64,000 bases of DNA from Zopfochytrium polystomum (Eukaryota; Chytridiomycota; Chytridiomycetes; Chytridiales; Chytridiaceae), in contig JAIVFJ010000265.1 in assembly GCA_025765615.1 (NCBI GenBank), forward strand, positions 20,190 to 84,189. Direction: 5' to 3'. The notes below the pieces were generated by a model. That model searched no databases. It saw nothing but the letters and a program-made list of their open reading frames with translations, and was not told the DNA's origin. Made by a program: the position numbers and the translations under genes. How positions within the stretch are numbered: the first letter of the stretch is position 1; each line of letters begins with the position of its first letter. This document shows positions 1 to 58,570 of the stretch, piece after piece.

Positions 1-396
1 TGTTTTTCATTCTCCTTGCATTGGCGTGATACTTGTACAGCGACCACCACCACGCAAGCGACGAAATCGGTTCGGAAAGTGTGCTGTACATGCAGTAATT
101 CAAACTTATCGAATGGTCTCCGAAAAAAATAGTTTGGATGTCAGCCAACATTTTCGCAATACTATTTCAAAGAATTTTTACAAATGTTGATCAAAGGATC
201 AAAATTAAAGTTGGAAAGAACTAATTGTGAAGCCGAGAAACATTAATTTGTTCTTGGTAAGTGCCTATCCCATTTTTCTTATGTAATGAATAAAAAGAGA
301 GAAAAAACAGGAAAATGAGAAGCAATGGAGGTTACCATCTCGAAGAAAGTGTTGAAGATTCAAATAATGAAATCAAGAATATTATTTTATCAGTAA

Positions 397-720
397 GAGG
401 TCGTTTCAAGTAGAAAAGGCAGAAAAGGTTTTTGAGCAAACAAGGAAATGTTGTTCCAAGTGCCCTTCCCATGGACTGGCACATGAGCAAGTGAAAAAAT
501 AGAAGAAAGAATTTTTTCACTGGCGGAGACAGACCACCCCCAAGGAGACGGACCACCTCACGGACAGAGTGAATTAGCTGAATTAGCTCAATTAAAGAAA
601 TAGAGCAAGATTAGCTGTGGCAAGGAAATGGAGGAAAATGTTTCCTCCATTAAGTTTTCAGCCAATTAAATCTTTTATTCCCCAGTAAAGATTTCTGCCT
701 TTTCCACTTGAAACGATCTC
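397..720. mobile_element. PIF/Harbinger-type MITE with TAA target duplication
   Basis: A 324-bp element begins GAGGTCGTTTCAAGTAGAAA and ends with the inverted counterpart (...CCACTTGAAACGATCTC). It is flanked by TAA at 394-396 and TAA at 721-723. Three-bp TWA duplications and such termini are characteristic of PIF/Harbinger transposons. There is no coding capacity inside, so it is a non-autonomous copy. Its right end is nearly the mirror of the neighbouring element's left end, which creates the palindrome at 578-880. Confidence 0.6.
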
Positions 721-14354: not shown

Positions 14355-17300
14355 TCAAAACTCAATAAAAGAAGAAATTCCTTCACCAATGGTGAAAACA
14401 TTTTGCTGTGAGAGGAGCTGAAAGTCACCACGAAATTCAAGTGGAAGCCAGCAACAAACTTTAGTGACATCAGATATGAACCAAACACCATCATTTATCA
14501 CAGATTCAAGAACACCTTCCCCACTCAGCAGCCACTGTCCTGAAGAATTACGTGCACTACAATTGTGTGCCAGGTTTGGAGCTGTGAGTGTGATATCACT
14601 TCTTTCCACCGGCAATCCTGTCCTAAGCTTGATGAATATTCTCTTGTAATTTCTGTCCTGCAAAACAACAGATTGTCCATCCGCAGTGAATCCAGAAGAC
14701 ATTGTGAATGAAAAACCATCCAGCTTATGCAGCTCTTGGCCACTGGAAGGATTCCAAATCCTGACTGTCCTGTCCCTACTTCCAGATACAACGAACTCCT
14801 CATTAGGACTAAATGCTGCAGAGTAGACAAGATCAGAGTGTCCCTCCAGCGTATGCAGCTCCTGGCCAGTGGAGGAATTCCAAATCCTGACTGTGTTGTC
14901 CAAACCTCCAGACACAACAAACTGCCCATCAGGACTGAATGCTGTAGAGCAGACAGCACTAGAGTGTCCCTCAAGCTTATGCACCTCCTGGCCAGTGAAA
15001 GCATTCCAAATCCTGACTGTCTCCTCCAAACCTCCAGACACAACAAACTGCCCATCAGGACTGAATGCTGCAGAGTAGACACGACTAGAGTGTCCCTCAA
15101 GCTTCTGCAGCTCCTGGCCAGTGGAAGCATTCCAAATCATGACTGTGTTGTCCCCACTTCCAGACACAACAAACTGCCCATCAGGACTGAATGCTGCACA
15201 GTTGACACGACTAGAGTGTCCCTCCAGCTTCCGCAGTTCCTGGCCAGTGGAAACAGTCCAAATCCTGACTGTCTTATCAGAACTTGCACACAAAACAAGC
15301 TGCCCATCAGGACTGAATGCTGCCGATTTGACAAAATAAGAGCGTCCCTCCAGCTTCTGCAGCTCCTGGCCAGTGGAAGCATTCCAAATCCTGACTGTGT
15401 TGTCCAAACCTCCAGACACAACAAACTGCCCATCAGGACTGAATACTGCATAGTAGGCACCAACAGAGTGTCCCTCAAGCTTTTGCATCTCCTGGCCAGT
15501 GGCAGCATTCCAAATCTGGACTGGGTTGACCAAACCTCCAGACACAACAAACTGCCCATCAGGACTGAATGCTGCATAGTAGACACCAATAGAGTGTCCC
15601 TTAAGCTTATGCACCTCCTGGCCAGTGGAAGCATTCCAAATCCTGACCGTCCTGTCCCAACTTCCAGACACAACAAACTGCCCATCAGGACTGAATGATG
15701 CAGAAAGGACTTCTTCAGAGTGTCCCTCAAGAATATGCAGCTCCTTGCCAGTGGAGGAATTCCAAATCCTGACTCTGTTGTCTTCACTTCCCGACACAAC
15801 AAACTGCCCATCAGGACTGAATGCTGCACACCTGACATGACCATAGTGTCCCTCAAGTGTATGCAGCTCCTGGCCAGTGGAAGCATTCCAAATCCTGACT
15901 GTCATGTCATCACTTCCAGACACAACAAACTGCCCATCAGGACTGAATGCTGTAGAGTGGACACCACTAGAGTGTCCCTCAAGCTTATGCAGCTCTTGGC
16001 CAGTGGAAGCATTCCAAATCCTGATTGTCGAGTCTTCACTTCCAGACACAACAAACTGCCCATCAGGACTGAATGCTGCAGAGTTGACATCTCCAGAGTG
16101 TCCCTCAAGAATATTTAGATAGGAAGGCCAAGATTTTAGTTGCCCTTTTACCACTTTCGGGCATGACACACTTCTAGGCACCTTCAGAACAAAAGCCTTA
16201 AAAAATTCAGAGTCACTTGGGGCGAAGGGTACAGCTGTGAAGTAAACTTGCAGTGCAGATGCCTTGAGTGGAATGAGAAACGTTTGCACGACCCTCTTCA
16301 TGTCTTCAATCAGGGTGCACAGTGGTTTCTTTTCATGAATAGGGACTAGACTCTGGAGCTTCGTCATGGCAGGAAGCACCAAATTGAGCGAGTCAAGCAA
16401 GCTACAGGCTTCCAGGAAATGGTGACCATGCTCTTCCAGGAATTGTTGCAATTCAGTCTGCAGACTATGTGTCTCCTGAGGATAATTCTTTGGGAAATGT
16501 CCGCTTGACGCGTCAAAGCAGTGTTCCCAGAAGTGCTTCACTGCATATTTAACATGGTCAGGGATTCCTTTCTCAACTTTCTCATCAAAATCGGGGATCT
16601 CAGAGTGGAAATCCGAGAATGGCAGGTCACACAAATTAAATTTCAGATTCTTGTTCAATGCGCTGATGCACAGCCTTGCAAATTCACAGTGGCTACTTTT
16701 CGGGTCAATCTGAACAGACAGCTTGCATCTTTCTGGAGTTGTCAGGTAGTCCTTGACAGACTTGTGAAAAATCCTGATTTTCTTGGTAGAACCATCAAGC
16801 ACAAGGATGGGATCAAGCAAACGGATGCACCTCATCACATTTTCAGGTTTCGCCTTGTCCAGCAGCGAGACAATGGCGTCTGCAGTCAGAGGTTCATAGG
16901 CAAAAACAATGGTGGACAGAACAGAAAGAAGAGTGTCCAAATGATCCGCTTTGATGGACTGAAGCATGCCATTGAACATTCTGTCATACATTGAGTCAAT
17001 GCTTCCATCCATCTTGTCGCCCTTGGGAAGGTCTTTAATTTGCTCAAGAGTGGTTTCTTCAGTCTCCAATTTCTGCAAATAAGTGCAAGCAGTCACAAGC
17101 CAGACGAATATTCCAGCAGACTTTGACACCAGAATCTCTGATCCCTCATCAACAACAGATTGCTCAGCATTCAAGGATCTGAGGAAATGTCTTGTGAACT
17201 CAATCTGGTCCTGTGTGTTCTCTTCAGCCGTTGGCTCAATTTCCTCAAAAGGAATCTTCTCAAAGGCTTTCACAATATCTACTTCAGGGCGTCCAGTCAC

Positions 17301-19220
17301 CAGCATCTTCACGTTATCAGGAAGCAGCCTGTCCAGTTCCTGAAACACTAAAAGAATCTCAACCCTCTTCCCAATAACACTGGATTCTTCAAGGGCATCC
17401 ACAACCAGGACCACAGGTACATTCAGCTTCTTGCTTTCAACAACTTTCTTCAGTGGCTGAACAAGCAGCACCTTCATCATCTCAAACATTGATTTGGACA
17501 GAATATCTGGATTGGCTTGCTTGACTTGAAGCAGAATCTCTCCAAATTGAAGGTTGAACCTTGCAAGACCAAACACAAGAGTCAAGATCAGGTTTCGAGC
17601 ACTGCTGCGACGCTCGTCATCATGCTTGCAGAAGAACAAGCCACCAAGCATATTCTGGGCCTGCAGTTCCCTGGCGACCATAGCAGCCATCACAGACTTG
17701 CCCACTCCAGTCACACCTTTCAACCACATCACCCTGTTGGAGCTGGCCGCAGTGCGATCGTCAGGAGATAGAAACTTGAACACTTTCTTCAGCAGCCACT
17801 CCCTGGATCCAGAAAGAACATTCTTCAGGAGAGCCTCCCTCTCAAGATCCATGATTTCAGACAGGGGAGACAACCATTTCTCCAATTCAGCCAAATTAGA
17901 TCTGGAAAGTGAAATAACTTGGCTTGGACTCAGACTCTTCGAATCTACCTTGCGGCGACTGTACACTTCTCTGGCTTCAGTCACAATCCTTTTACAAGAA
18001 GGTCAGGTGAGGGTAGGTGTGAGCAATAAAAGGGGTAATTTAAAAGTGTTGGCACTTACTTCATTACATCATTCTCAGGATTTGCCTTTGGCCCATTCAG
18101 TTCTAAAATCATCTTGACAGTTTCACGCACTGTTTGGAGGCCAGGACTTAAAGCGTGGGCATGGGGGAAGCCAGGAAACTTCTCGAGGTCAAAGGTGCTG
18201 AAGTCCACCATGACCTTTGACTTTTTACCATTGGTCAAGGTTGTCTCCTCCCTGCTTGAAAGAAGGACAGGCAGAATGTCGTGTCCTTTCTCTCTCTTCA
18301 TCTGAAGTGCAAGCTCCCACTGAAATTTTGTGTTAAAGTGCAATATTGAAGAAAAACATTTCACCTCTAGCAAGCAGTTGTCAGGCTTTTTGTCAGCCTC
18401 AAGCATCCTCTTCATACTTGCATCAGAACAAAGCAGAATGATGACTGAGGAGTGAAACAGTCCAGACATGAAGTTGATTCCCCATTCCCCAGTGTAAGAA
18501 AGGCATTCTGCATCCAAGAAAGCATGTCTCCCTTCCAGTCTGGACTCCTCAGTGAGGACAGATCCAGTATAATCTTTCATGAGGGCAATCTGGATCTCGT
18601 TAAACAGAGTTCTTGCAAACTCTGTCTCTGAAGCCTGTCGGTAGCTGAAAGATATTTGGAGTGAGGCACACAGAGAGGCAGGACAGAACAGGTACCTGAT
18701 GAAGAATGGGTGCTTTTGAACTTTAGTTTTGCAATCCCAGTCACTTGGGATGAGATCCATCCATTTATCTGAGTGAGTGAACGAAAACGGCAGAAGATTA
18801 GGTGAAAGCTCAAGGCATACAACTGAATCATATTTTTTACCCATTTTGTGTTCAAGGCTCTTATCATAGCTGTCATCTGCTGCACCAGCGGTGCCTCCAG
18901 ATGTAGTGTCACGAGCAGTATCAAGAACCTTTACAATAATGAGGTGGTGATTGGGACTTATCAAACACAAATATACTTACTTTCCACTTATAATGCTGAG
19001 AAAGCAGACTGGGAATATCATCATCTGCTTCGAGGACAATTGCATTATTTGTGGCAGAGTCCACGTACAGCAACTCCATCGCAACATCCTCCACAACATT
19101 GAATTTGGTACGAACAAGCTGATGCAAGCCGTCAAAACCAGTGGCAACAGGTACACGGATCTTCCTTCCAATGCCTTCAAACACAAAGGTCACAGTCCAC
19201 GCATTCAGTTGGGTGGCCAT
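14355..19220 (-). CDS. PB1-TIR-NACHT-WD40 STAND receptor (NLR-like), 1,580 aa, three exons
   Basis: Exons (minus strand): 19220-18981, 18928-18060, 17988-14355. Donors are GTAAGT and phases agree, giving 1,581 whole codons. Domains: residues 8-75 fit a PB1-like ubiquitin fold, with an acidic OPCA-like end (LYVDSATNN...LEADDDI). A TIR domain spans about 168-345: 'ISFSYRQASETEFA' as first strand and helix, 'FLDAECL...GEW' as the BB-loop region, 'SSVIILLCSDA', and 'QWELALQM' in which E285 sits where TIR NADases keep their catalytic Glu. The NACHT P-loop GVTGVGKS is at 461-468 and the Walker-B-like VVLVVDALEES at about 562-572. The C-terminus carries eleven 42-aa WD repeats plus a degenerate twelfth. 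STAND proteins of this build oligomerise on ligand sensing through the repeats and signal through the N-terminal domain. NACHT-WD40 proteins are common in fungi, but TIR plus PB1 at the N-terminus is unusual. An upstream ATG in the same frame exists; 19220 was chosen because the PB1 domain starts there. The ligand is unknown. Confidence 0.85.
14717..16112 (-). repeat. Eleven near-identical 126-bp WD40-repeat units
   Basis: Each unit encodes LEGHS..V..AAFSPDGQFVVSG..D.TVRIWN.STGQEL.K. The framework residues are nearly invariant, also at DNA level. Changes concentrate in a few positions: after GHS, around the residue before 'AAF', and after 'SGS/SGG'. A twelfth degenerate unit (LDGFSF...) closes the propeller at about 14620-14717. 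The pattern suggests recent unit amplification or gene conversion. The high identity also makes unit number prone to assembly collapse. Confidence 0.9.
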
Positions 19221-20290: not shown

Positions 20291-20906
20291 ACTACAAACG
20301 AATTTTTTTTTTTTTTTTCAGCGCCCTTCGGTCCTCCCAAGAATCACAAAATTCCTGAAAAAGACCCACTATTTCGTCGCTCTCCACCCCGTACCGCAGG
20401 GCTGTTGCCTGCCGTGGACACCACCAAAACAATTGCGCGGCAAAAACTCCTTGTCGTCCTTCTCATCCTCGCCTTCTTCTTTGTCAGTGTTAGCGATACT
20501 GCCCAGTCCTTCGCCCCCTTCGTCCCGCATAATCCAAAAGGAGATCAAACCACCTGCTACTCACCTTCCCGTGTCGGTGCTCGTCACCATTGCCTCCTTG
20601 CGGCGAGAGAGATTGGACGCTCACAAAAAAGGCGAAGAAAAGGGTGGTGGAGGGCTTGAACCATCATTTTTTATTTTTCTTTTTTTTGCAGATGGAGATG
20701 GTGATGGAGATCCATTTGAACCGTGCTCTTACATGACCATGTCTCCTGACGAAATGAAAGCTCAACTGTTCAAAAATGGTAATAGAATCTGTGACAATAG
20801 TTATTCTGTAAGGAAAAGACGCTGCCCCTTCGAAACAATCTACGTCAATTCAAAAGAATTTGTGTTATGTGACGAATCACCTGAATTCTATTTTAGCAGG
20901 TGTTGA
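20288..20906 (+). CDS. Possible small secreted cysteine-containing protein (hypothetical)
   Basis: Two overlapping frames look partly coding. The frame starting at 20288 includes a hydrophobic segment (LLVVLLILAFFFVSVSDTA, about 20450-20505) that could be a signal anchor. The frame ending at 20906 contains, from about 20692, a polar segment with five cysteines (DPFEPC...RIC...RRC...VLC...SRC). A 'TTTTTTTGCAG' acceptor at about 20682-20691 could splice the first onto the second. No known domain is recognised and the exon structure is a guess. Confidence 0.25.
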
Positions 20907-44412: not shown

Positions 44413-47400
44413 ATGGAGTCGTTTCAAACGCGTCCGTCTCGGTCTCGCCGGCCCTCTCAAGTCGCAATGACAACGTTGCCGAAGCTCTCTGTATTCGGCG
44501 TTGTTTCTCTGTCCGCGCTCTCCGCCCTTCAAGCTCTGGCGTCGCCCGTGCAGGCCGTCGAATCCGTCTCGGCTTCGAATGTTCAGCCCGCTGGAAGCAT
44601 TCACCCGTTTTGCACGTCGGATCTCGGAGAGCATGGCGTCAACGTTGTTGGAGCAACCGCTGTGTCGCTCATGACAAAGGAGGGGAACAATGCCGCGTCG
44701 GTCCAGTGGACGACTTCGTACTTTGGCGGTCGCGTGTGCGGTTACGCCATGGCTGATATGTGCGTTATTGATGAGGAGAATTATAGGTTGAATCGTACAC
44801 GCGGAGCATGTGAGTAAAGAAAAATTGTGGGCGTGGAGCGATTGGGAACCAGGGCGATTCTGACCCTTTCTTTTTTTTTTGTTCAGACGACCTGTCTTAC
44901 GAGCCTCGCCCCACGGCGCATCACTGCTGCGCTGTCGACCAGGACTCGGCCATTATGGCTTGCTTTGGTGGAACCTCTGCAAGCTCAAAAATTTATCGGT
45001 TTTCGTTGACCGACTCTGTTTGGCTCAAACCCATTACTGCAACCTTGAAGGAGGAACTGGACTTTGGCCTGTTGCGCCGCGGGCACGCGTGCTCTGTCGT
45101 TGATCACACGCTGTACGTTTGGGGTGGAGTCGACCCGTCTGGTCGGGATGCGAAGGAGGTGTGTGCTGCGCTTATTCCCACATTTTTTAATTGTCGTGAC
45201 TTAACCGACTCTATTTCAGGTCTTGATTTTCATTGATTTGGAGAAACAGCGAACTTGGAAATCCTTGAACGCTCAGCAACCCGTCGATCGTCATGGCCAC
45301 TCTCTCGTTCGCGACGGCGACGATTTGATTGCGTTGTTTGGACAGCCGGGCTACATTGGCGTGCAGTCGGCGATGCTTCGATTCAACGTCGAAACTGGCA
45401 GTTTCATGAAGCTGGACACAGAGCCGCCATTACCCGATATCATGGACGGCGCGTCGTGTGCTCCCTACTACTCGAAACAATCCCGTTCGCTGACTGGTAT
45501 ATTCTGCGCTGGTGGCCGTACGAAGCGCCCGGGATCTTCTTGGAGTGATTTGGACCAGTACAAGCCGTTTGAAAACCTCCTGTTCGTTGACGTGGAAAAT
45601 CGCAAGTCGTACGACTTGGGGCCACTGCCCGCTTCCGAGAAGCAATGGGGGTTGACGCTCAGCATCCACCACACCAAAAAGGCCAATTTCGTCTCGATCC
45701 ACGGCGGACGGCGACTGCCGCACATCAACGACCCACGCGTTTCCACCGACGTGTACAACCTTCCATCTCTTGCGTGTGCTAAAAGCGGCAGTCCATTCCC
45801 GTCGGTTCTGTACTACCGTATTCCAGAGAAAGGTCCGCATACTGCTGGCGCATGGATGAGCCCAGCAGAAGTTGCTCGACTGGCCGACCTTCGCTCGTTC
45901 TCTGTTGCCGGCGAAATTTCCTCGAAAAAGGCTGGTGACACGGTGATGACTTTGACGTACGCCGCTTACGTGGTCGTCTTCGGCCTCGTTGTCGCATGGC
46001 TCATTTTGTACTGTTGCCAAAGGCCGACGACCAGACCAAACACTACGTCGCGCGACGAGCGTGAACCTCTGATGACCTCTTACGGCCCTTCATCGCTCCT
46101 GCCTGCGCTTGCTACTGGTATTTACGGGAAAGGAAACGCCAAAGACGGTAACGGGGGTGGTAGCGCGGGCGTATATTCGGAGCCCCGCGGATTCGATGAC
46201 AGCGTTGGTTCCACCGCGCCTGGCGGAAATTCTGGGAAAACAGGCGGGAACATGGTCAGCTACGGGACGTTGTCGGGTAGCACCCAATCGTTAGCTTCCT
46301 CGAGCACCTCCTTCAACTCGTCCAGCAGTATTATTATTTCGCTGACGAGGCGCACTGTCGACCCTGTCTCTGGTGATGTTGTTAATACGGTAAGCGACCC
46401 CACATTTCTTTCCACTTCAACGTCTTTGTTCACGACTGAGCGTTTTTACTTTTAAAACAGATCGAGTACACCCTGGAGATTCCAGGCTATGCACTCAATG
46501 GATGGTGGATCCGCATGATGAGCATGATTTCCACTCGTTCGTCGACTTTTGATGTTGTAACGTTCTTGATGGCGCTGGTTGACACGACAGATATGAGCCA
46601 CCGGTCCCTGCCTCGCATTTTTCGGGTGGCCGGTGTTTCGCTTCAACTCTCCGACATTGAAGCCTTCGATTCAAATCTGGTGAAAACGGACGGGGCGTCC
46701 ATCGGCCAGCTGCTGAGCTTTGTTCGTGAGGCTGTTCTGCTTGTTGGCGTAGATCTGGTCATTCAGCAGGTGATTCCTCTCTTCAACTACAACGCGCAGT
46801 CCAAGGCGATTGCATCTGCAATGTCGAAATCCAGCTCGTCGAATCTGAGCTCCGGTTCATACCCCGCTACAGCCAAAATTACGGCCGAGGAGCCGAACTA
46901 CGGCGTTGGCGCGACTGCCAATGTGCACTCCGCGGCTGCGGGCGGAATGAAGACTTGCGTCGAGGAGCAGACGGTGACGGGAACAAGTGGCATCACTATC
47001 ACGCTGACAAAGCAAACCCTGGATACTTCGACGCAAAAGGTTCTTGATGTCGTGAGTAAAGCAAAATCTTGTTGTGATCGTTTCTGAACGATTTATTTGC
47101 AGCAAGAGTACACTATCAACATCCCTGAAGCCGCATTGAACGGATGGTGGACCAAGATGATTTTAACTACGAAATCGCTGTCAAAAACCTTGAAGATTAA
47201 CTTATTTTTAACTGCGTTGGCCGAAGCGAACGAAGTGAACGACGTTACGCTGATGGACGCGTTCAAACAGGCTGGATGTGAGATTTCTGTGAACGAGCTG
47301 ACAACTATCAAATCGGAATCGGCAGCAATCGACATGAGCCTGCTGAAACTCCTGGACTTTGTTCGAGAAACTGTCATTCTTGTTGGTCCAGAGCTCACGG

Positions 47401-50400
47401 AGGAACAAGTTTTGCCCCTGTTCGATTACAATGTTTCGACATCAACCACGCATACGACAACTACGACAACCACAGATACTGCTGCAACCGAAATGACGAC
47501 GGCAAAAACTCCCGAGCAGGTCCTGGAATTGGTAAACTCGTCAAAGGGCGAATCTGTGAAGGAGACGACTTCCATCGACTCCTCCGCCGTCCTTGTCGTG
47601 ACGCTGACGAAGCAAACTGTGAACCCGACGACCAATGAGATTATTGAAACGGTGAGGTTTGCCACCCTGGTATAAATTTAGGCTGCTCTTTGCTAACGGA
47701 CTTCTGTTCCAGTCCGAGTACAACTACGAAATACCTGTGTCGGCGCTGGACGGGTGGTGGTCAAGGCTTGTGACTATGGTTACAACTAGGTTTACAACGT
47801 TCAACATAACTGTCTTTATCGAAAGGATTGCTGCCTGCACCGTTCTCTCGAGCGAGAGCGTGCTCGAAGCCTTCCGACTTGCTGGTGCGCCCATGTCCAA
47901 GAGTGAATGCGAGTCGTTGTACTCGCAGGCTGGTATCTCGGGCAATGCTGTAGAACGAATTGATATCATCCGCAAGGCCTGCGACCTCGTTGGGCAGGAT
48001 CTCGTCATTGAGCAAGTTCTCCCGCTTTTTGACCACAACGCCACCCAGACTATTGCCACGACGACGACTGAAACAACGTCCACGACGACCGCAGTGCCAA
48101 TGGAGTCTTCTTCCACGAATACGAAAGAAACCGATGCCATCAATTACGACTTAACCGAGGCGGAACTGGCATCATCCATTGTTGTGACGCTCACCAAAAC
48201 GACTGTGAACCCAGTCACTAACGAAGTAATTGAATCGGTGGGTTTCTCAAAAGCAGCTAGATGTTTCTTTTCCGCGTCTTTCTCACTTTCAGTCTCACAC
48301 TAGGTCGACTACGATCTGTCGCTTCCAGAGGCGTTCCTGTCTGGGTCTTGGCAGCGCATCATCCGCATTGTTACGACCCGTTACACCACTTTTAACACGG
48401 CGGTTTTCCTCACTTGTATCGGCGAATCTTCTGGGTCACTCACCGAGTCTTCCCTTCTTGATGCGTTTTCGAAAGCTGGTGCGCCGTTGTCCCCTGGGGA
48501 ACTCGACCTGTGCAAGGGCGAAGTCAGCAAAGAGAATTCATACGCACTGATGAAGCTGATGACCATTGTGCGCAAGGCAGTGCAACTAGTCGGGGTCGAC
48601 TTGGTCGTGGAACAGGTGTTGCCACTCTTGGACTACCGGGTCTCTTCATCGACCGAGGTCTCGAACAGCGCAACGATGGTGAACACGTCGCCCACTCCGG
48701 ACTCAGTCTACCAGACAGCTGTCCCGAAAAGTGAGTACGGAACGGTCTCATCCACAACTACCACAACTTCGACGACGGAAAGTAGCACCTTGGAGAGCGC
48801 GCCTGGCTTTGTCGCGCGCAACGAGACCATTACAGAGGCGCCCGTAGTGTATGAGCGTACCGAGTCCTCGTCGTCCACAGTTATTGTCACCCTTACAAAG
48901 ACGACACTTGACGGTGAATCAGGACAAGTGATTGACTCGGTAATTTTTTTTTTGGAGGCTATTATTATTCATTTGCTTTCCTATTCTCACAACTTGCTCG
49001 TTTCTTAACAGATTGACTACGACCTTGAGATTCCGTCTTTTGCTTTGACGAATTGGTGGCCGACGCTCATTCAGCACCTCACCACACGCTACTCCCTGAA
49101 CGTGCACGTTTTCTTGACGCGAATCAGTGAGTGCAACGGCGCAGTCAGCGAAACTGTTATCATGGACGCACTCGCTGCTGCCGGCGCTCCGATTTCGTAT
49201 GCAGAGCTAAGGAGTTGCATGGGCGCCGAGTTTGGCATGCTTGTTTCGCAGATCACTTTTGTTTGCAAGGCGGTTCGGCTTGTGGGCGTCGAGCTCTTTT
49301 TGGAACAAGTGGCCCCGCTGCTTTCGGAGGCAACCTTGGGCACGCAAGAAACCTCGACCCACGAGACGACGACTACTACGACGACTGTGACCACCGAGGC
49401 ATTTGAGGAGAAGACTGCGGCGCCTGCTTTCACCACTTATGCCATGCCTGAGGCCGTCTCGAGCGTTTTGCAGACTGTTGTTCTCCCTAGTGAATATGCG
49501 AAGGATATGTCCGCAGGCGCTTCATACGTCACTCTGGCCCCTGCCGTCTCATCGCAAACTGTGTCGGAGACGTACACTACCAGTGTGGAACCGGCCGCAC
49601 CGCCGAAGATTACACCTTCTAGCTATCGCAGCGAAGTATCTGAGGTGGTACGGTCAGACCATCAGAAGCCAAGCTCAGTTATTCAGACTTACGAGTCGAC
49701 ACCAGTCGTGACCAGATCCGAAACCACCGTTGTAGAGTACGTTACGGTCCCGACACCGACCACCGTTATGCCGCAGTCTCCTTCCGTCGCCTCCTGCACT
49801 CCACCCGTGACAACGAGTGAAACAGTCACCACGGTCGCTGAGTCTTCGTTGCAGCCGCAAACAAAGCCCGTTCAGACCTCTTCTACTATTATCCGCAAGC
49901 AGTCTTCCCCGGTCGGCGCGAAGTCCGAGACGGCTTCGTACAACATTTCGACTGTTCCAGCCTCCGTCATTCGCGAGGAGAAGGTTGTTTCCTACTCGCC
50001 TGTGGTAGTTTCGTCTTCGACGACCAGCTACTCTGGGATGTCGAGTCCCGCATCCTCAACGCCCATCGTGTCTTCCCTGACCACAAGCTACTCGTCTACC
50101 CCCATTTTGAAAAGGACGGAGACGGTCCAGAACTACTCGACGTCGTCGACCCCTCTGCTGTCGAAGACAGAGGTTGTTAGTACGAAAGTCGAACCCTGGC
50201 AGACAGACAAGACTCTTGTCGAAGAAGTGGTCGTCTGTGAACCGTCTGTTGGACCGGTCGAACTGAAAAAGGAGGGTTACGATGCGCCTACCGCACCTTC
50301 CACATCAAACTACATGGCGTACTCGGCAATGCCCAGTTTTTCAGCCGCTGTTGTCGAGTCGAACAAGACCTACTCGACCCCTACCGCGCCTGTTGCTTCC

Positions 50401-53400
50401 AGTTCTCAGGTTACAGCCTACGAAACTGTAACGACGCAAAGTTCAACTGGTCGGGTCCAGTCGGTTGTGCAAGGAAAGGTGACCGCTGGGGAGGCCGTCT
50501 CCAAAGTCACGCAGACTGTCACAACTACCACCACGTCGGGTATCCAACAAGGCTATGCTCCAGAGCAGGCATCGTCAGGGTACACGAGCTTTGTTGAGAC
50601 CAAGGAGTCGGCCAATGTGGAGTCTGGCAGCCGGCCGACTATTTCGTATGCTTCCACTACCGCTCGCCCGGTTTCGTCTTACTCGACCACAAGCTCCTCC
50701 ACCAGCTCCAGCCGCCCCGTTTCGAGTTACTCGAGCTCGTCGGTATACTCGTCGCCAATGTACACACCTTCAGAACCGGTTGTAGATAAGTCGTCTGCGG
50801 AAGTCAAGACATACACTCCCGCGGAGAACGGCGGCGTTTCGAGCATTGTCAAACGATACGAAACCACGACGACAACAACCAACCCGGAAAGGACGAGTGT
50901 CTACGTTAGCGCCCCCGCAACGCCCTCCGTCACTGCTCCCCCGACGCCGCACACGACCTCGACTGTTGTTACAAAGACGGAGACGACTGGATATTCCAAC
51001 AGCAATTCGCATGAGAACCCTGCGGAGCAGTCCACCGCAAAGTCTGAGCAGATCATTCATATCCCGCTGAAGGAGACGCCACCTGCTGGCTACTCATCGG
51101 AATCGCAGACGAATGTACAGTATTCGTCCTCCGCGCCAAACACGGCATCCACGACTGTTGCCACAATGGCGGAGGCGACAGGATACACGGCCAACAAGCC
51201 ACAACCTTCATCCGCATCGTACACTGTGTATCAGGACGTTGGGGAAGTGCCGACTGCAAAGTCTGAGCAGATTATTGAGACACCACCGTCTGGCTATGCT
51301 TCTTTCGATTCTCAAACCACTATGCAGTATTCGTCGGCCGCGCCCACCACGAATTCGACGACCTCGACTGTCACGAAGACGGAGACGACTACCTACAAGG
51401 CTGATTCTCAGCAGTCAACCCCATCTTCGTACACGTTATATGGAAGTCCGGCTGCACAGTCGACCACGAAGTCTGAGCAAATCATTCAGATCCCGTTGGA
51501 GGAGGCGCAAACTGCAGGCTATGCTTCGGAGTCGCAGTCTACCGTGCAGTATTCGTCGACCGTGCCGACGTCGACGACCTCGACTGTCGTTAAAAAGACG
51601 GAGACGACGGTGCTCGCGGCCAACAAGCCCCAGCCTTCGTCTACGTCGTCATACACTGTGTATGAAGGTCCCGCGAAAGTGTCGACTGCAAAGTCGGAGC
51701 AGATAATTCAGATTCCGTTAAACAAGACTGCTTCCGAATCTCAATCTACTGTGCAGTATTCGTCGACCGCGCCAAGCACGACCTCGACGACCGTTACAAA
51801 GACAGGGACAGCCGAATTTTCGACCAGCGGGCCTCAGTCTTCGTCCACTTCGTCGTACATTGTTTATCAAAGTCCTGCCGCACAGTCCACAACCAAGTCT
51901 GAGCAGATTATTCAGGTTCCCTTGAAGGAGACACAGCCTGCTGGCTATACTCAAACAACTGTGCAGTACTCGTCGAGCTCCCAAAAGGTCCCGTCAGAGA
52001 CCTCAACCGTGACCAGTGTGACGGACGCGGTCGTGGGTTCTTCAAATGTTTATGGGTCTGCACAGCAAATGACAAGCACCAACATGCACCCTGCCGCGAC
52101 CTCTTCGACTACCACAGCCGTGAACTCTGACGCATCCACAAATGCAGCAAATTCCGCTTCTAGCCCGTCGGACACTTACGAGTCGGGTCCCATTGTTGTG
52201 GCTCTTCGCGAGACCCCGCCTGAGCACCTGACAGATCACTACGCACCGGCTCCATGGACGCAACGTGTAGAGACTGTCGAAGTAATGTTTCTTGTGATTG
52301 AGTTTGGTCCCCTTCAACAAATTTCTGATTGTTCTCTTTTAGACGTGGCAGATCCCCGAAAGCGAGTCGTCCAAGACCACTTCTGTCACCACTACGACAA
52401 CCGCCATAACCACCACCACGTCTTCCAGTTCCACAGTAGAGCCAACGACGGCGACGCATGGAACAGTGGTCGCTGAATCGTCGACTCTCTCTGTTGCTCC
52501 GTCGGATACGGTCACCTCGTCAGGTCCGATTATGATAACTTTGAAAGAAACTCCGGCGGAGCATCTGATGGGCTGCTATGCACCGGCGGCCACACCTTCC
52601 ACTGCCTGGACGACAGCTGCAACTGAACAAACAATAACGCGGACCGAGAGTGAATTTTCGTCGGCTGAAACTCCGGCCGCGTCTTACTCGTCGGACACAG
52701 CAACTTCGTCGGGGCCAATTATGATTCCACTACGAGAATCGCCGCCGGAGCACTTGACGGAAGTTTACGCCCCTGCAGCTTACACTGAGACTGTCAAAAC
52801 TGAAGAGACTGTCATTCACACAAGCGATGCGCCCAGCGGATACCAAGGGACTTCCGTTCACGAGTACGCGCCGACTGAGTCGATGCGAACTGAACAGCGG
52901 GTGATGGAATCCTACGAAACGATAGAGACAATCATCATGACAGTCACAAAGAACACTGTGAATGTTGAGACGAATGAAATTATCGAGTCCAAGGAATACG
53001 ATATTGAAATTCCTGGGTTTGCTCAGCGCGGATGGTGGTCACTACTAACGATCAGCATCGTTCGGAAATTCTCAAGCTTCAACATGACTGCATTCCTTGC
53101 TGCGCTGAGCCGCCGTGAGCAAGTAACTGTCGAGACGATTGTTGAGGACATCAAGTCCTGCGGGGCGCATTTGACCACATCCGACTGGATTGCAATCCTG
53201 GCAGACATGAAGTGCACTGAAGCAGATTTCGTCAAGCTGATGATTTTTGTCGGCACCGCAGTGAAATTGATTGGAGTTGAACTGTTCCAAGAACAGGTGG
53301 TTCCACTGCTAGTTTCTTTTGAGGCGAATTCCTCCTCCGTCACTACGGCGACTGTCACGACGTCTCCCGTGCCTGCGACATCATCAGAGGTCTATGTTGT

Positions 53401-56400
53401 TGAACAAAAGTCGTCAACCGGTGCACCGTCACCGTCCGCGACGGCGTACTCGACTTACGCCCCTGCCTCTTCTTCCTCCACCCCTGTCGTTACGGCAGAG
53501 TCTAAGAATGAGGCGCCTTACTCGCAGGACGCCACTTATGGATATTCGGCAAAATCAGAGGCCTCCAGTGGTCCGGAGGTCAACACCACTTCGTCCACGA
53601 CGACGACAACAACAACCACGACGTCTTCTGTCACTGACATCGGCGAGCCCATCCCTGGTGCCGTGGAAACGGTGACGAAAGTGGACCAAGTTGCAGGGTG
53701 CATTTCTGTCCCCACTGACAATGGATCTGTCGCTCTTGACGTGCCCGAGTACGCTTGTGGCGACTGGTGGACCAGGCTTGTAGTCACGATTCGGAGGAAA
53801 TACTCTTCTTTCAACGAAGAAGCGTTTGTCGCTCGCATCGGCCAGTGCGAAAACGTGACGGAGTCTGTAGTCCTCGCTGCTCTCAATGACTGCGGCGCTG
53901 CTGTCTCACGACAAGAGTACGCGCAGATCGAGTCTGATTGTGGGTGCACAGTGGAAACGAACCTTGTGAAGCGTCTCACGTTTATTCGGACCGCCGTGCG
54001 CGTGGTTGGAGTCCAGCGAGTCCTTAAGACGGTTGTCACGGCGTTGTCGACTGTCCAGTCGTCGGCGCAGGTAGTTCCCTTCCAGCAAGGTTTGTGAATG
54101 TTTCCTTACAACCCCTCGTTCAATGTTTTACGCTGAGACTTTGTTGGACGGCTCTCAGAGACTCGTTTTGAAAAAATCGAGACGACCACGATTATCATCA
54201 CTTTGACCAAGAACCAAGTCAACCCCGACACGAACGAGGTGCTGTCCACCACCGAGTTTACGCTCGAAATTCCTGGCTACGCCCAGAGCGGGTGGTGGTC
54301 TCGGTTTATTGCCGTCGTCACTAGGCGTCAGCCCACTTTTGATGTCGCCGAGTTTTTGCAGAGGATCAGCTCTTGCGAAGTGGTCAGCACGGAAATGATT
54401 GTCACAATTTTGGCGTCGTGCGGCGCTCGCATTTCGGCCGAGGAGCTCTCTGTCGTTCGTGCGGAAGCCGGTTGCGAGAGCGACGCCACCCTCTCCCAGT
54501 TGCTCACCTTCTTTGGCGCCGCCGTTCGCCTGGTTGGTTCGGACGTCGTGCTTGAGCAGGTTGTTCCTTTCTTGGCGTCGCTGGACGAAACGGAGGGTGC
54601 TTTCACTGTCATTGACAAGAACGAGTCGCCGTCGTCTTTGGTGGCAGTGCCGGCCGTTGCGGCTCCGTCTGCGGCGGCTTCAGGCAAGTGTGAGTTTATT
54701 TTTCATTTCCCCCCCAATGGGTCTCTGACCTGACGTTTTTAAACAAACCAAAACCTACCAACAGACTCGACCGGAAAGCGGGAAAGCTGGTTTTCTCGCG
54801 TTGCAAAAGTGGTAAAGGAGGGCGCTGCCGCCGCCGGGACCACAGTTCGTCTTGCGAGCGAGTCTGCCGGCTCGGCTATTGTTCAAGGCGCTTCTGCGGT
54901 GGCGGACGGCGCGGTTGCTGTTGGAAATGCTGTGAAGACAGGCGCACAGGCCACGGGCACTGCCGTCTCGTCAGGCGTCAAGGTGGCGGGATCGACCATC
55001 ACCGAGACCGCAGCAGCAGCTGGTAACGTCATTACTCAAGGTGTTGACGCTGCCGGAGGCGCTGCGCTTGCAGGGGCTACTGTTGTCGGCGTGACCGTTT
55101 TCAAGGTGGGAGAAGCGGCCGGCTCTGCCGCCAAGACCGTCTCTAGTGCCGCTTCAAACGGCTTCCAAGTTGCGACCGAGTCGACGAGTTCTGCAGTCGC
55201 CCAAGGCGTCGCTGCGATTGAGACGACGGCCAGTGCCGCGGGAGGTGCCGTCAAGTACGGAGCGCTTGGAGTCGCTTCTGCTGTCGCGTCTGGCGCGAAA
55301 AATGCTGGGGCTTCCATCACCCAAGGCGCGTCGATAGCAGGCGGTCTGATGGCTCAAGGTGCGAGCGTGACCGGAAGTGCCATTGCGCAAGGAGCGAGGG
55401 CGACTGGGAACGCGGCGCTGTACGGCGTCGATGCCGTCGGTGCCGCGGCCTTGAAGACTGCAGAATTGAGCGAGGCGGCAAAGACTACTATCGCGTCCTC
55501 TGTCTACCAAGGTGGTGCGAGTGCCTTGGCGGCTGGCACCAGCATCAAGTCGGGATTGGCAGGATTGGCCGATTCCGTAGTGACGGGTGCGAAAGTTGCA
55601 GCGGGCTCTGTGTCTCAAGGAGCGACGAAAGCCGGAACCCTTATTGCGCAGGGCGCCGCTGCAGCGGGAAACGCCGCTCTGTCTGGAGTCGATGCGATTG
55701 GGGCCGCGGCGCTGAAGACGTCCGAAGCCACCGAGTCGGCGAAATCGAAAATCACGACGACGGTTTACAAGGGCGGCGAAGATCTTTTGACAAACACTTC
55801 GTCTGCGTTTCAGGCTGCCTCTAGCGCGGTCCTTGACACTGCCGTCACAGCGGGCTCGTCCATAAAGTACGCTGCTGGTGCAGCTAGTTCTACCGTTTAC
55901 GCTGGAGCCGAGTCGGCCGGTGCTGTGACGGCCGAGGGCGCAACCGTTACGAAACAAGCTGCGTCAAATGTGGGGGCGACCCTGTTTGGCGCTGGAAAGT
56001 CTGCGGTTTCCGCAGTCACCTCGCTGCTGGGTCGACGACCGGAGTCGGGTGGCTCTCCCACTCCTGCTGCAGGTGGTGTTGTGACCACTGCCACCTCATC
56101 GTCGCAGCCATCATACTCGACCGTTTCTGGCAGCGAAGGTACCTTGGAGTACGCCACGGTGACAGTTCGGAAGCAGGTTTTGGACCGCAAGACCAACGAG
56201 GTTGTCGATACGGTAAGGGATTATCTTGAGCACACGGTCCTGTAGTTCATGTTACTGACTAACGCGCCCATAACGTTTGAATTTTGTAGGTGGAAATCCC
56301 GTTAGAGGTCCCGGCAATCGCAATGGAAGGCTGGTGGGGCAGGATGGTGGCCTGGGTCACTGCTCGCTACCCTGCGTTTGATGCCGAAAAGTTCCTGACC

Positions 56401-58570
56401 TCCGTGAGCGAGACGCAGGAGGTGACGGACGAAACTTTTGCAGTCTCTTTGAAAATTGCCGGCGCTTTTGTGACGGAGGACGAGGTGAAGCAGCTCGCCG
56501 AAGTTGTCATTGGCGAGGGCGACGCGACACGGTGCAAGAAGATCCTGGTCGTCGTCCGCAAGATTGTCCGCATCGTCGGAGCAAAGGCCACAATTGAGCA
56601 GGTTGCACCCGTGTTCCAGCACGTGACGACGAGGACGACGCGCATCACCATCAAAATCAGGAGGATTTTGACTGCGGAGCAGGTGGAAGCCGGTTGCCAA
56701 GAGGTATGCATGCAGTCAAGGTCCCATGCTCAGCGATGTCTTTCATTTGACAAAATTTTTCCTGAAATCTAGACCGAAGAGACAATCGACATTCCTCCCC
56801 TTGCTCTTGCCTGGTGGCAAAAATGGATGGTTTCCGTTATTCGTCGATCGAAGTCGTTCAGCATGACTGTGTTCCTTGCAGTCCTCGGTGACTACGAGGA
56901 TGTGAACGACAGGACCGTGATGGAGGCTTTCACCGCTGCTGGCGCATCCGTGTCGCACAGCGAGCTGCAAGAAATGCGGCGTGATCCATCGTCCGGCGCC
57001 GGTGTATTGACTACCACCTGGACTGCCCTGAAATTTGTGAGGAGGGTTGTGCGCATTTGCGGTGTCGATGCCGTCAAGCAGCAGATTGTTCCCCTGCTTT
57101 GGACGTCGGACGACCACCACGACACGTTGACGGCTTCCTCATCTCATGATGACTTGTCGACTGTCGAGTCGTCGTACGCTGTGACGCCCTCCACCTCGTA
57201 CATGCCTTCGCCGGAAAGGAAGCCTTTTGGTATGTCTTCTTCCCCCAGAAATTCACTGGTAGCATGCCTCGTCTTATGGTTTTCAATTTCTTCCTCCTAT
57301 AGACGGTCAAATTACGTCTTTCCCAGCTCCGTACACCGCAGATGGTGAGACTCGACTTTTTTGTTTCTTACTTGTTTGTCGGTGTTTTACTGAAGACGTT
57401 TACACAACCACCCAGAGTCGCCATATGAAGCGCCGTCGAAGAGCCAGAAGCGAAAGAGCTTCCTGACCAAGGTGTTTGAGTCGGGCCAGAATGTCCTCAC
57501 AAGTGCGTTCCCCATTGCTCGCAAGACCTCTCTCTCGGATGAGTCTGCACGCGCATCGCCCGTCCCAGCCGACGTTCCTGCCACGGTGTACGAAGAGCCA
57601 GAAAAGGTCGTCATGTCGCCGCCGGGCGGCTCTAGCGGTACAGTTTCGCAAGAGAGCAAGGAAGGGTGGTTCACGCGAGCGAGCCGTGTCGTTCGCGACG
57701 GGGCGGCGGCAGCGAGTGCGTCGGCCGCTCAGGTCGGCGAAGTTGTGGCTGCGCCCATTCGACAGGGTGCAGGGGCCGCTGGCACGGCGATTTCGGCCGG
57801 GGCCACCCTCGCGCTGTCTTCGGCGGTGAAGGGTGCGGAACGAGTCGGCGAGGCCGCCGAAACGATTGGCACCACCGTCATGTCGACCGTTTCCAGCAAT
57901 GGATCTTCGGAGATGGCAAGCTCGAATCTGTATGGCACAGACTCGGCGGGCCAGTCCTCGTCGATTGTCGCGGCCGAAACAATGGAACAGCAGACCACGA
58001 CAGTGACTGAGAAGTCGGACCAAACGACTCAGCGCCATCAGACATTTACAGTCGAAACGGAAGAAATCCAATCTTTTGTGGTCACACTTACTCAGGAGAC
58101 TTACGACGGCGACACGAATGCGGTTCTGTCATCGGTACGCCGTTGTCTTTTTTTTTTCTTTTTTGTTTTCGCACAAATTTTTCTGGTCCTCACACGCCTT
58201 TTGCGCCCACAAATTTTTCACGCCACAGAAACAGCTAAGCCTGGAAATCCCCGCGATGGCCCTGGGCACGTGGTGGTCGACGATGGTGTCGTCGGTGAAG
58301 GCGAGCCACTCTGCGTTTGACTCTAAAGTGTTCGTAGCCGCGCTTGCGCAGTGCGCGACTTTGAACGACACTCTTGTGCTCCAGGCGCTCTTTGACGCCG
58401 ACGCGCCGCTGACGCTGGCGGAATGGTCGAGCGTGAAGCTGGCTGTTGGCGGTGGCGACGAGGGCAAGGTGATCCAGTGGCTGTCGTTTGTTCAGTCGGC
58501 GGTGAGGATCGTTGGCGGAGATTTGTTTGTTGACCAGGTCGCGCAGCTGCTCGAGTCGGTTCACATTTGA
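44413..58570 (+). CDS. Giant Kelch-TM protein with eleven copies of an unrecognised 'GWW' module, about 4,369 aa, 16 exons
   Basis: Exons: 44413-44809, 44887-45158, 45220-46389, 46461-47051, 47103-47651, 47713-48237, 48304-48939, 49012-52281, 52343-54089, 54159-54689, 54765-56212, 56290-56703, 56773-57229, 57303-57344, 57416-58134, 58229-58570; every junction keeps frame (4,370 codons). A signal peptide follows the second in-frame ATG (44467: LPKLSVFGVVSLSALSAL). The ectodomain has Kelch/beta-propeller features: 'MACFGGTS', 'GHACSVVDHTLYVWGG', 'RHGHSLVRDGDDLIALFG', 'FCAGGRT'. One TM helix (YVVVFGLVVAWLILYCC) is at about residues 468-488. The cytoplasmic tail contains modules 1-5, a Ser/Thr-rich region, modules 6-8, an Ala/Gly-rich amphipathic region, modules 9-10, a short Ala-rich region, and module 11 at the very C-terminus. 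Architecture suggests a surface receptor or adhesin linked to a large intracellular scaffold; that is inference. It might instead be split into two or more genes; transcripts would decide. Confidence 0.7.
51000..52000 (+). repeat. Five ~70-aa Ser/Thr-rich repeats within the giant protein
   Basis: Copies of (A/S)TAKSEQII.IPL recur at about 51040, 51262, 51472, 51691 and 51898, spaced 207-222 nt. Each is followed by GY.SESQ.TVQYSS..P and TST.TKTETT. Three further copies of a different motif, GPI.(V/I).L(R/K)E(T/S)P.EHL, occur at about 52185, 52524 and 52720. The region is probably disordered and rich in phosphorylatable residues. Confidence 0.8.
54800..56030 (+). repeat. Ala/Gly-rich ~11-residue periodic region (LEA/perilipin-like) in the giant protein
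   Basis: About 400 residues follow a recurrent pattern of roughly eleven: (A/S)G.A(I/V).QGA..AG.A. Small residues alternate with single V/I/L and few charges. Such 11-mer sequences form long amphipathic helices in LEA group 3 proteins, perilipins and synucleins. A shorter related stretch recurs at about 57690-57890. Two nearly identical internal segments (GNAALYGVDAVGAAALKT and GNAALSGVDAIGAAALKT) show internal duplication. Confidence 0.75.

Follow-up and report, generated by a model that had tools for sequence, protein, structure and literature searches.

The contig 265 window of the chytrid Zopfochytrium polystomum (Chytridiales), a 64,000-nucleotide stretch of the 80-Mb assembly (C265, bases 20190-84189; positions below are those of this window unless another contig is named), carries a gene whose predicted product of 4,369 amino acids (aa) contains eleven copies of a repeated module. 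The gene belongs to a family that we read, with a probability of about 0.5, as proteins that span a membrane once, with a kelch domain facing away from the cytoplasm and, within it, a giant tail of module repeats that serves as a multivalent scaffold and links the kelch-bearing membrane to a second lipid surface. The module itself represents a real domain family that was matched by no described family in the searches made, and its fold is confidently predicted.

The repeat module

A sequence-only reading of this DNA had proposed an array of eleven divergent modules of ~110 aa in one giant protein, and the eleven copies were confirmed, all in one gene on the plus strand. In leave-one-out comparisons each of the 11 modules, set against a profile that omitted it, scored 92.9-119.5 bits, compared with best scores of 4.0-9.8 bits for shuffled modules (200 per module), while the best open frame beginning outside the gene (335-610, minus strand) reached 7.6 bits with an E-value of 0.23. 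The length had been underestimated: the module comprises ~137 aa, since an opening beta-hairpin is included, and it starts ~26 residues upstream of the earlier boundary, at hairpin strand 1, whose sequence is of the type VVTLTKxTVNPxTNEVIES. Pairwise identity among the eleven copies ranges from 21 to 45% with a mean of 31%, compared with an earlier estimate of ~25-45%. Over 50 modules, two adjacent tryptophans (W41 in 48, W42 in 47), a phenylalanine (F61, 48) and two glycines (G122, 48; G84, 46) are the most conserved positions.

In eight of the eleven copies (modules 1-5 and 9-11) a phase-0 intron cuts the hairpin, leaving strand 1 in the preceding exon. The recurrence of this symmetric site suggests that the module probably multiplied, and the array grew, as an exon unit was duplicated together with the phase-0 introns that split the hairpin.

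Predicted fold and relation to known families

The AlphaFold2 model of module 8, computed from an alignment of 16 rows (the window modules and pieces of the proteins P0002 and P0003), has a mean predicted local distance difference test score (pLDDT) of 94.4 and a predicted template modelling score (pTM) of 0.84. It consists of two strands (residues 7-16 and 23-33) followed by six helices (41-52, 58-65, 73-82, 89-98, 104-121 and 123-136). The same order of elements was predicted for module 7 (pLDDT 88.7, pTM 0.80; first 11 residues unreliable), and the two modules, which are 32% identical, thus share a predicted hairpin-plus-six-helices fold. The compact helical domain foreseen from the sequence alone is therefore retained in the models as compact and mostly helical, with a beta-hairpin in addition. 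Of the features from which such a domain had been suggested, the two tryptophans open a helix in the models, and the LVG glycine sits between the final two helices.

No Pfam family reached its curated cut-off, either for four modules or in a separate scan of 50 modules, in agreement with the earlier statement that the pattern belongs to no recognised domain family. Death-fold families were likewise absent from the Pfam scans and from the structural matches listed, although such an absence does not exclude a death fold. In a Foldseek search of the PDB made with module 7 only, nothing was found below an E-value of 2.0.

Gene model and layout of the protein

The gene was modelled as one putative frame across 16 spliced exons (Table 1), with GT-AG introns chosen by us and with the ATG opening MTTLPKLSV as an alternative start. 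Position 46461, where the repeat array had been thought to begin, is an exon start, and a TGA codon (58568-58570) directly follows the last coding base, 58567.

Table 1. Features of the predicted gene in the window, with the residue at which each module is placed in the protein
Feature	Positions	Strand	Residue	Remarks
Whole gene	44413..58570	+		modelled as 16 exons, 4,369 aa, single terminal stop
Signal-type N-terminus and kelch beta-propeller ectodomain	44413..45957	+		PF24681 match; introns 44810-44886, 45159-45219
Single transmembrane helix	45958..46017	+		YAAYVVVFGLVVAWLILYCC; by eye in the window gene
DEREPLM, acidic-dileucine-like motif	46054..46074	+		counterparts ERQPLM (C51), DERLPLM (C41)
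Module 1	46312..46793	+	614	strand 1 46312-46389 (exon 3), intron, rest 46461-46793
Module 2	46974..47432	+	811	strand 1 46974-47051, intron, rest 47103-47432
Module 3	47574..48039	+	994	strand 1 47574-47651, intron, rest 47713-48039
Module 4	48160..48639	+	1169	strand 1 48160-48237, intron, rest 48304-48639
Module 5	48862..49332	+	1381	strand 1 48862-48939, intron, rest 49012-49332
Ser/Thr-rich linker, modules 5-6	49333..52912	+		intron 52282-52342; repeated short motifs
Module 6	52913..53320	+	2687	with hairpin, intronless; profile and gene model
Module 7	53645..54055	+	2931	hairpin sequence off-pattern, yet predicted hairpin (AlphaFold2)
Module 8	54173..54583	+	3084	with hairpin, intronless; structure modelled (AlphaFold2)
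AH1, amphipathic region	54788..56032	+		415 aa, Ala/Gly/Ser-rich, 11-residue period; after module 8
Module 9	56135..56625	+	3713	strand 1 56135-56212, intron, rest 56290-56625
Module 10	56626..57108	+	3851	strand 1 56626-56703, intron, rest 56773-57108
AH2, second amphipathic region	57667..57891	+		opening WFxR.sRVVRdGA as in AH1; after module 10
Module 11	58057..58561	+	4257	strand 1 58057-58134, intron, rest 58229-58561; C-terminal end of the protein

The N-terminus is hydrophobic and of signal type as judged by eye. The spliced ectodomain matches PF24681, the family of the KLHDC2/KLHL20/DRC7 kelch propellers, at 62 bits (E 6.6e-17; curated cut-off 50), which identifies it as a kelch domain; the next match, the attractin-type PF24981, stays under its cut-off of 50 with 40.5 bits. 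Its matches in the PDB are solved kelch-domain-containing proteins, with E-values down to 1.1e-4. In contrast to known kelch propellers, the domain is here part of a protein that crosses the membrane once and carries a giant array of modules. The most hydrophobic stretch of the C51 and C41 paralogues sits at the place matching the window transmembrane helix, and these counterparts support the membrane-anchored tail suggested by the sequence-only reading.

Near this helix, DEREPLM, with ERxPLM kept in three paralogues, resembles the lysosomal sorting signal DERAPLI of LIMP2 (SCARB2), which is given along with the acidic-dileucine consensus [D/E]XXXL[L/I] in PMC5297682. The final residue is M instead of the L/I of the consensus, and the signal is a putative one in a fungus; the likeness suggests that the three paralogues may pass through an endosome or vacuole route.

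The tail after the transmembrane helix, ~3,900 aa long, comprises the eleven modules and putative helices with 11-residue repeats. In the linker between modules 5 and 6, threonine (219) and serine (212) predominate among 1,169 residues. Short motifs recur in it (IIHIPLKETPPAGY, IVVALRETPPEHL, IMITLKETPAEHL, IMIPLRESPPEHL), and a kindred EIIAVELKETP was found in P0002; the pattern GPIxxxLKETPxEHLxxxYAPA has 3 matches against 0 in 1,000 shuffles, and these segments are possible docking motifs.

The first amphipathic region, AH1, has 92 identities among 404 positions at an offset of 11 residues (shuffle mean 55, maximum 76-78 in 1,000 shuffles) and a hydropathy power at period 11/3 of 45.5, compared with a maximum of 39.5 in 1,000 shuffles. 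A corresponding region of the C51 gene shows 55/189 offset-11 identities (shuffle maximum 43). Windowed hydrophobic moments of AH1 and of the C12 region lie above all 500 shuffles, but those of AH2 and the C51 region do not. Ala, Gly, Ser and Thr account for 63% of AH1, with few large hydrophobic residues. In this respect, and in its period, AH1 resembles the helices of perilipin 4, alpha-synuclein and apolipoproteins; PMC5889406 describes the 11-mer repeats of Plin4 as forming a 3-11 helix upon lipid contact and, with large hydrophobic residues scarce, targeting droplets. The resemblance is one of kind, homology not being implied: perilipins are soluble proteins with the helix beside a 4-helix bundle, whereas here it lies within a membrane-anchored tail, and the 33-mers of Plin4 are far more regular. 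No Pfam family, the perilipin domains (PAT, 4-helix bundle) included, was found at E<=1 for the frame containing AH1 (54743-56245); other parts of the tail were scanned in pieces.

A gene family in the Z. polystomum genome

The module had been described from one protein, but about six genes on nine contigs carry it. When the genome was searched, module 2 gave 66 matches and module 8 gave 76, on the window's own contig and eight others. With at least 18 bits and at least 85 model columns, 73 matches remain: C12 17, C41 13, C265 11, C51 7, C688 7, C519 6, and C37, C216 and C59 4 each. Three pairs of contigs, C51/C519, C12/C688 and C37/C216, are near-identical (dS, the synonymous divergence, 0.006-0.023), so that about six genes are distinct.

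The array is preceded by kelch matches on C265, C51, C519, C41, C37, C216 and C59, although in the scan of contigs only those on C41, C37 and C216 exceed the cut-off; none was listed for C12 or C688. The kelch ectodomain is thus present in five of the six genes, and in C51, C41, C37 and C59 a hydrophobic stretch accompanies it upstream of the array. The window ectodomain can be aligned with those of C41 (34% identity, E 5e-94), C51 (39%, 3e-70), C37 (32%, 4e-42) and C59 (45%, E 5e-24, and 26%, E 5e-11), which argues that the order kelch-membrane-array is shared by descent even where the modules are only ~20% identical. Such a distant module subfamily (~20% identical), with weaker copies below 20 bits against the seed profile, occupies the kelch-membrane genes of C37, C216 and C59. 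The genes on C51 and C12 are represented in public databases as Z. polystomum proteins; that of the C12 gene, P0003, has leucine-rich repeats at its end (31.6 bits).

At 19780-23792 of C51, three near-identical tandem units with ~1.87 kb spacing each contain an equal-scoring module match, with amphipathic openings at 20480 and 22346, and represent a recent expansion. On C519, in the near-copy of the C51 gene, two module matches are interrupted by in-frame stops (17555-17866 and 18731-19054; 1 TGA and 2 TGA), reflecting either a broken allele or assembly errors.

Age and constraint

The array had been held to be old and functionally constrained. In a tree of 52 modules, in which branches are long and the bootstrap is not fully settled, window modules 2, 3, 4, 10 and 11 have a C51 or C41 module as partner (starred support), window module 1 pairs with a paralogue module at 84/84, and a single group holds most C12 modules. 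The pairing of window modules with paralogue modules suggests that much of the array order predates the gene duplications, and the array is old in that relative sense. The modules also look constrained: in the three near-identical contig pairs their ratio of nonsynonymous to synonymous substitution rates (dN/dS) is 0.29, 0.22 and 0.40, based in total on 15 differences that are synonymous and 14 that are not, compared with 0.68, 0.69 and 0.30 outside the modules in the same pairs (about 50 + 82 differences).

Proposed role and alternative explanations

The repeats, the frame, the kelch similarity, the transmembrane stretch, the paralogues and the 11-residue repeats are read from the sequence and the fold is predicted; from these we infer the role as follows. 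The tail would form a flexible scaffold of beads on a string, in which the folded modules would provide weak docking sites in large number or adhere to one another, the Ser/Thr-rich linkers would act as spacers, and the helices with 11-residue repeats would lie flat on a lipid surface, either a droplet or a neighbouring membrane. The protein would thereby tie the kelch-bearing membrane to this second lipid surface. Several results weigh against such a scaffold. The C12 gene has modules and putative amphipathic helices but no kelch or transmembrane segment was seen upstream, which means that the anchor is not general, and in the C37 and C59 genes the dileucine-like motif is absent by eye. The offset-11 identities of AH2 (15/79, shuffle maximum 19) and of the C12 region (23/109, maximum 25) fall within those of shuffles, and the hydrophobic moments fail to separate 100 from 98.18 degrees. 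In the pair C216/C37 the modules (0.40) are under no special constraint relative to the remainder (0.30). Finally, length-limited searches found no relatives outside Z. polystomum, so that no function can be assigned by kinship.

A serious, if tentative, alternative would make the protein a receptor or adhesin of the cell surface or vacuole. The kelch domain would bind a putative outside ligand, signalling or cytoskeletal partners would be drawn in by the modules of the tail, and the 11-residue repeats would do no more than keep the tail against the inner leaflet of the membrane that the protein spans. The signal-type N-terminus followed by kelch, a single transmembrane helix and a long tail would suit this role, as would the expansion of a family with diverging ectodomains and the dileucine-like motif; however, one family member has no ectodomain, and scans of parts of the protein revealed no known signalling domain such as a kinase or an adaptor. 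Rather more doubtful is the explanation that the helical core of the module is a far-diverged EF-hand pair devoid of calcium loops, similar to the arrays of EFCAB6 and supplemented with the hairpin and a C-terminal helix, which would clasp amphipathic peptides like calcium-free EF-hand lobes. EFCAB6, a protein of ciliary doublets with degenerate EF-hand arrays, is the recurrent top PDB match of module profiles (E 5.2e-5 over the whole chain, yet no single stretch is significant), further profile searches gave EFCAB6 or EF-hand proteins at E 0.0047 and 0.87, the reversed-sequence control contained no EF-hands, and EFCAB6 recurs among the weak structural matches of modules. The module differs from it in the extra hairpin and helices; the calcium-binding loop DxDxDG occurs in 0/50 modules, and no EF-hand Pfam model is among the 21 families that the 50 modules matched at E<=1, although HMMER filters drop most weak matches. 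Placement in an existing family, which the sequence-only reading had named as its refutation, was thus not obtained with confidence, but the lean of profiles and weak structural matches is towards EF-hand proteins, chiefly EFCAB6, and a remote tie to this protein is possible.

It is very improbable that the gene is a fast-evolving repetitive sequence of little specific function, or part of a decaying family kept via unequal crossing over. The three near-identical C51 units, the cluster of recent C12 modules and the in-frame stops in C519 could be so explained, but not readily an open frame of 4,369 aa, the conservation of W, W, F, G and G in 46-48 of 50 modules, or the module dN/dS of 0.22-0.40, few as the underlying differences are. 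The scaffold reading can also be extended, although this is unlikely to be correct, to a module fold unrepresented among solved structures and a family forming a chytrid-specific organelle tether, in which a cisterna bearing the kelch domains would face a lipid globule that the Plin4-like tail helices coat and the module array would form an adjustable lattice, the whole being part of the zoospore microbody-lipid globule complex. Such a complex, with a fenestrated cisterna, is described for several chytrid groups in PMC6492006; a link between it and the protein is speculation.

Other genes in the window

On the minus strand, a STAND/NLR-like gene (14358-18976) encodes a weak TIR_2 match (18059-18976; 22.7 bits, cut-off 28), an NPHP3_N/NACHT-type NTPase (16140-18002; 82.9 bits) and a WD40 array (14722-16109) of 11.0 copies of a 126-bp unit with 85% matching. 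It resembles an immune-type receptor of TIR-NACHT-WD40 order, whose repeat seems young and still subject to homogenisation. On the plus strand, the segment 22580-26758 contains a Lipase_3 match (43 bits) near an MMR_HSR1 GTPase match (27.9 bits).

Implications

If the module holds, it would add a domain family whose structure is predicted with confidence and which can be sought by profile in other early-diverging fungi. Its weak lean towards EFCAB6 offers a sharp test of how EF-hands drift after the loss of calcium binding. The combination of a kelch ectodomain, a membrane anchor and a giant perilipin-like tail was not met in the searches made. To our knowledge, the structure joining membranes and lipid stores in chytrids has been described by electron microscopy without named proteins, and we know of no protein component of the fenestrated cisterna of their zoospores. 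The family described here may give direct access to the way in which chytrid cells could attach membranes to their lipid stores.

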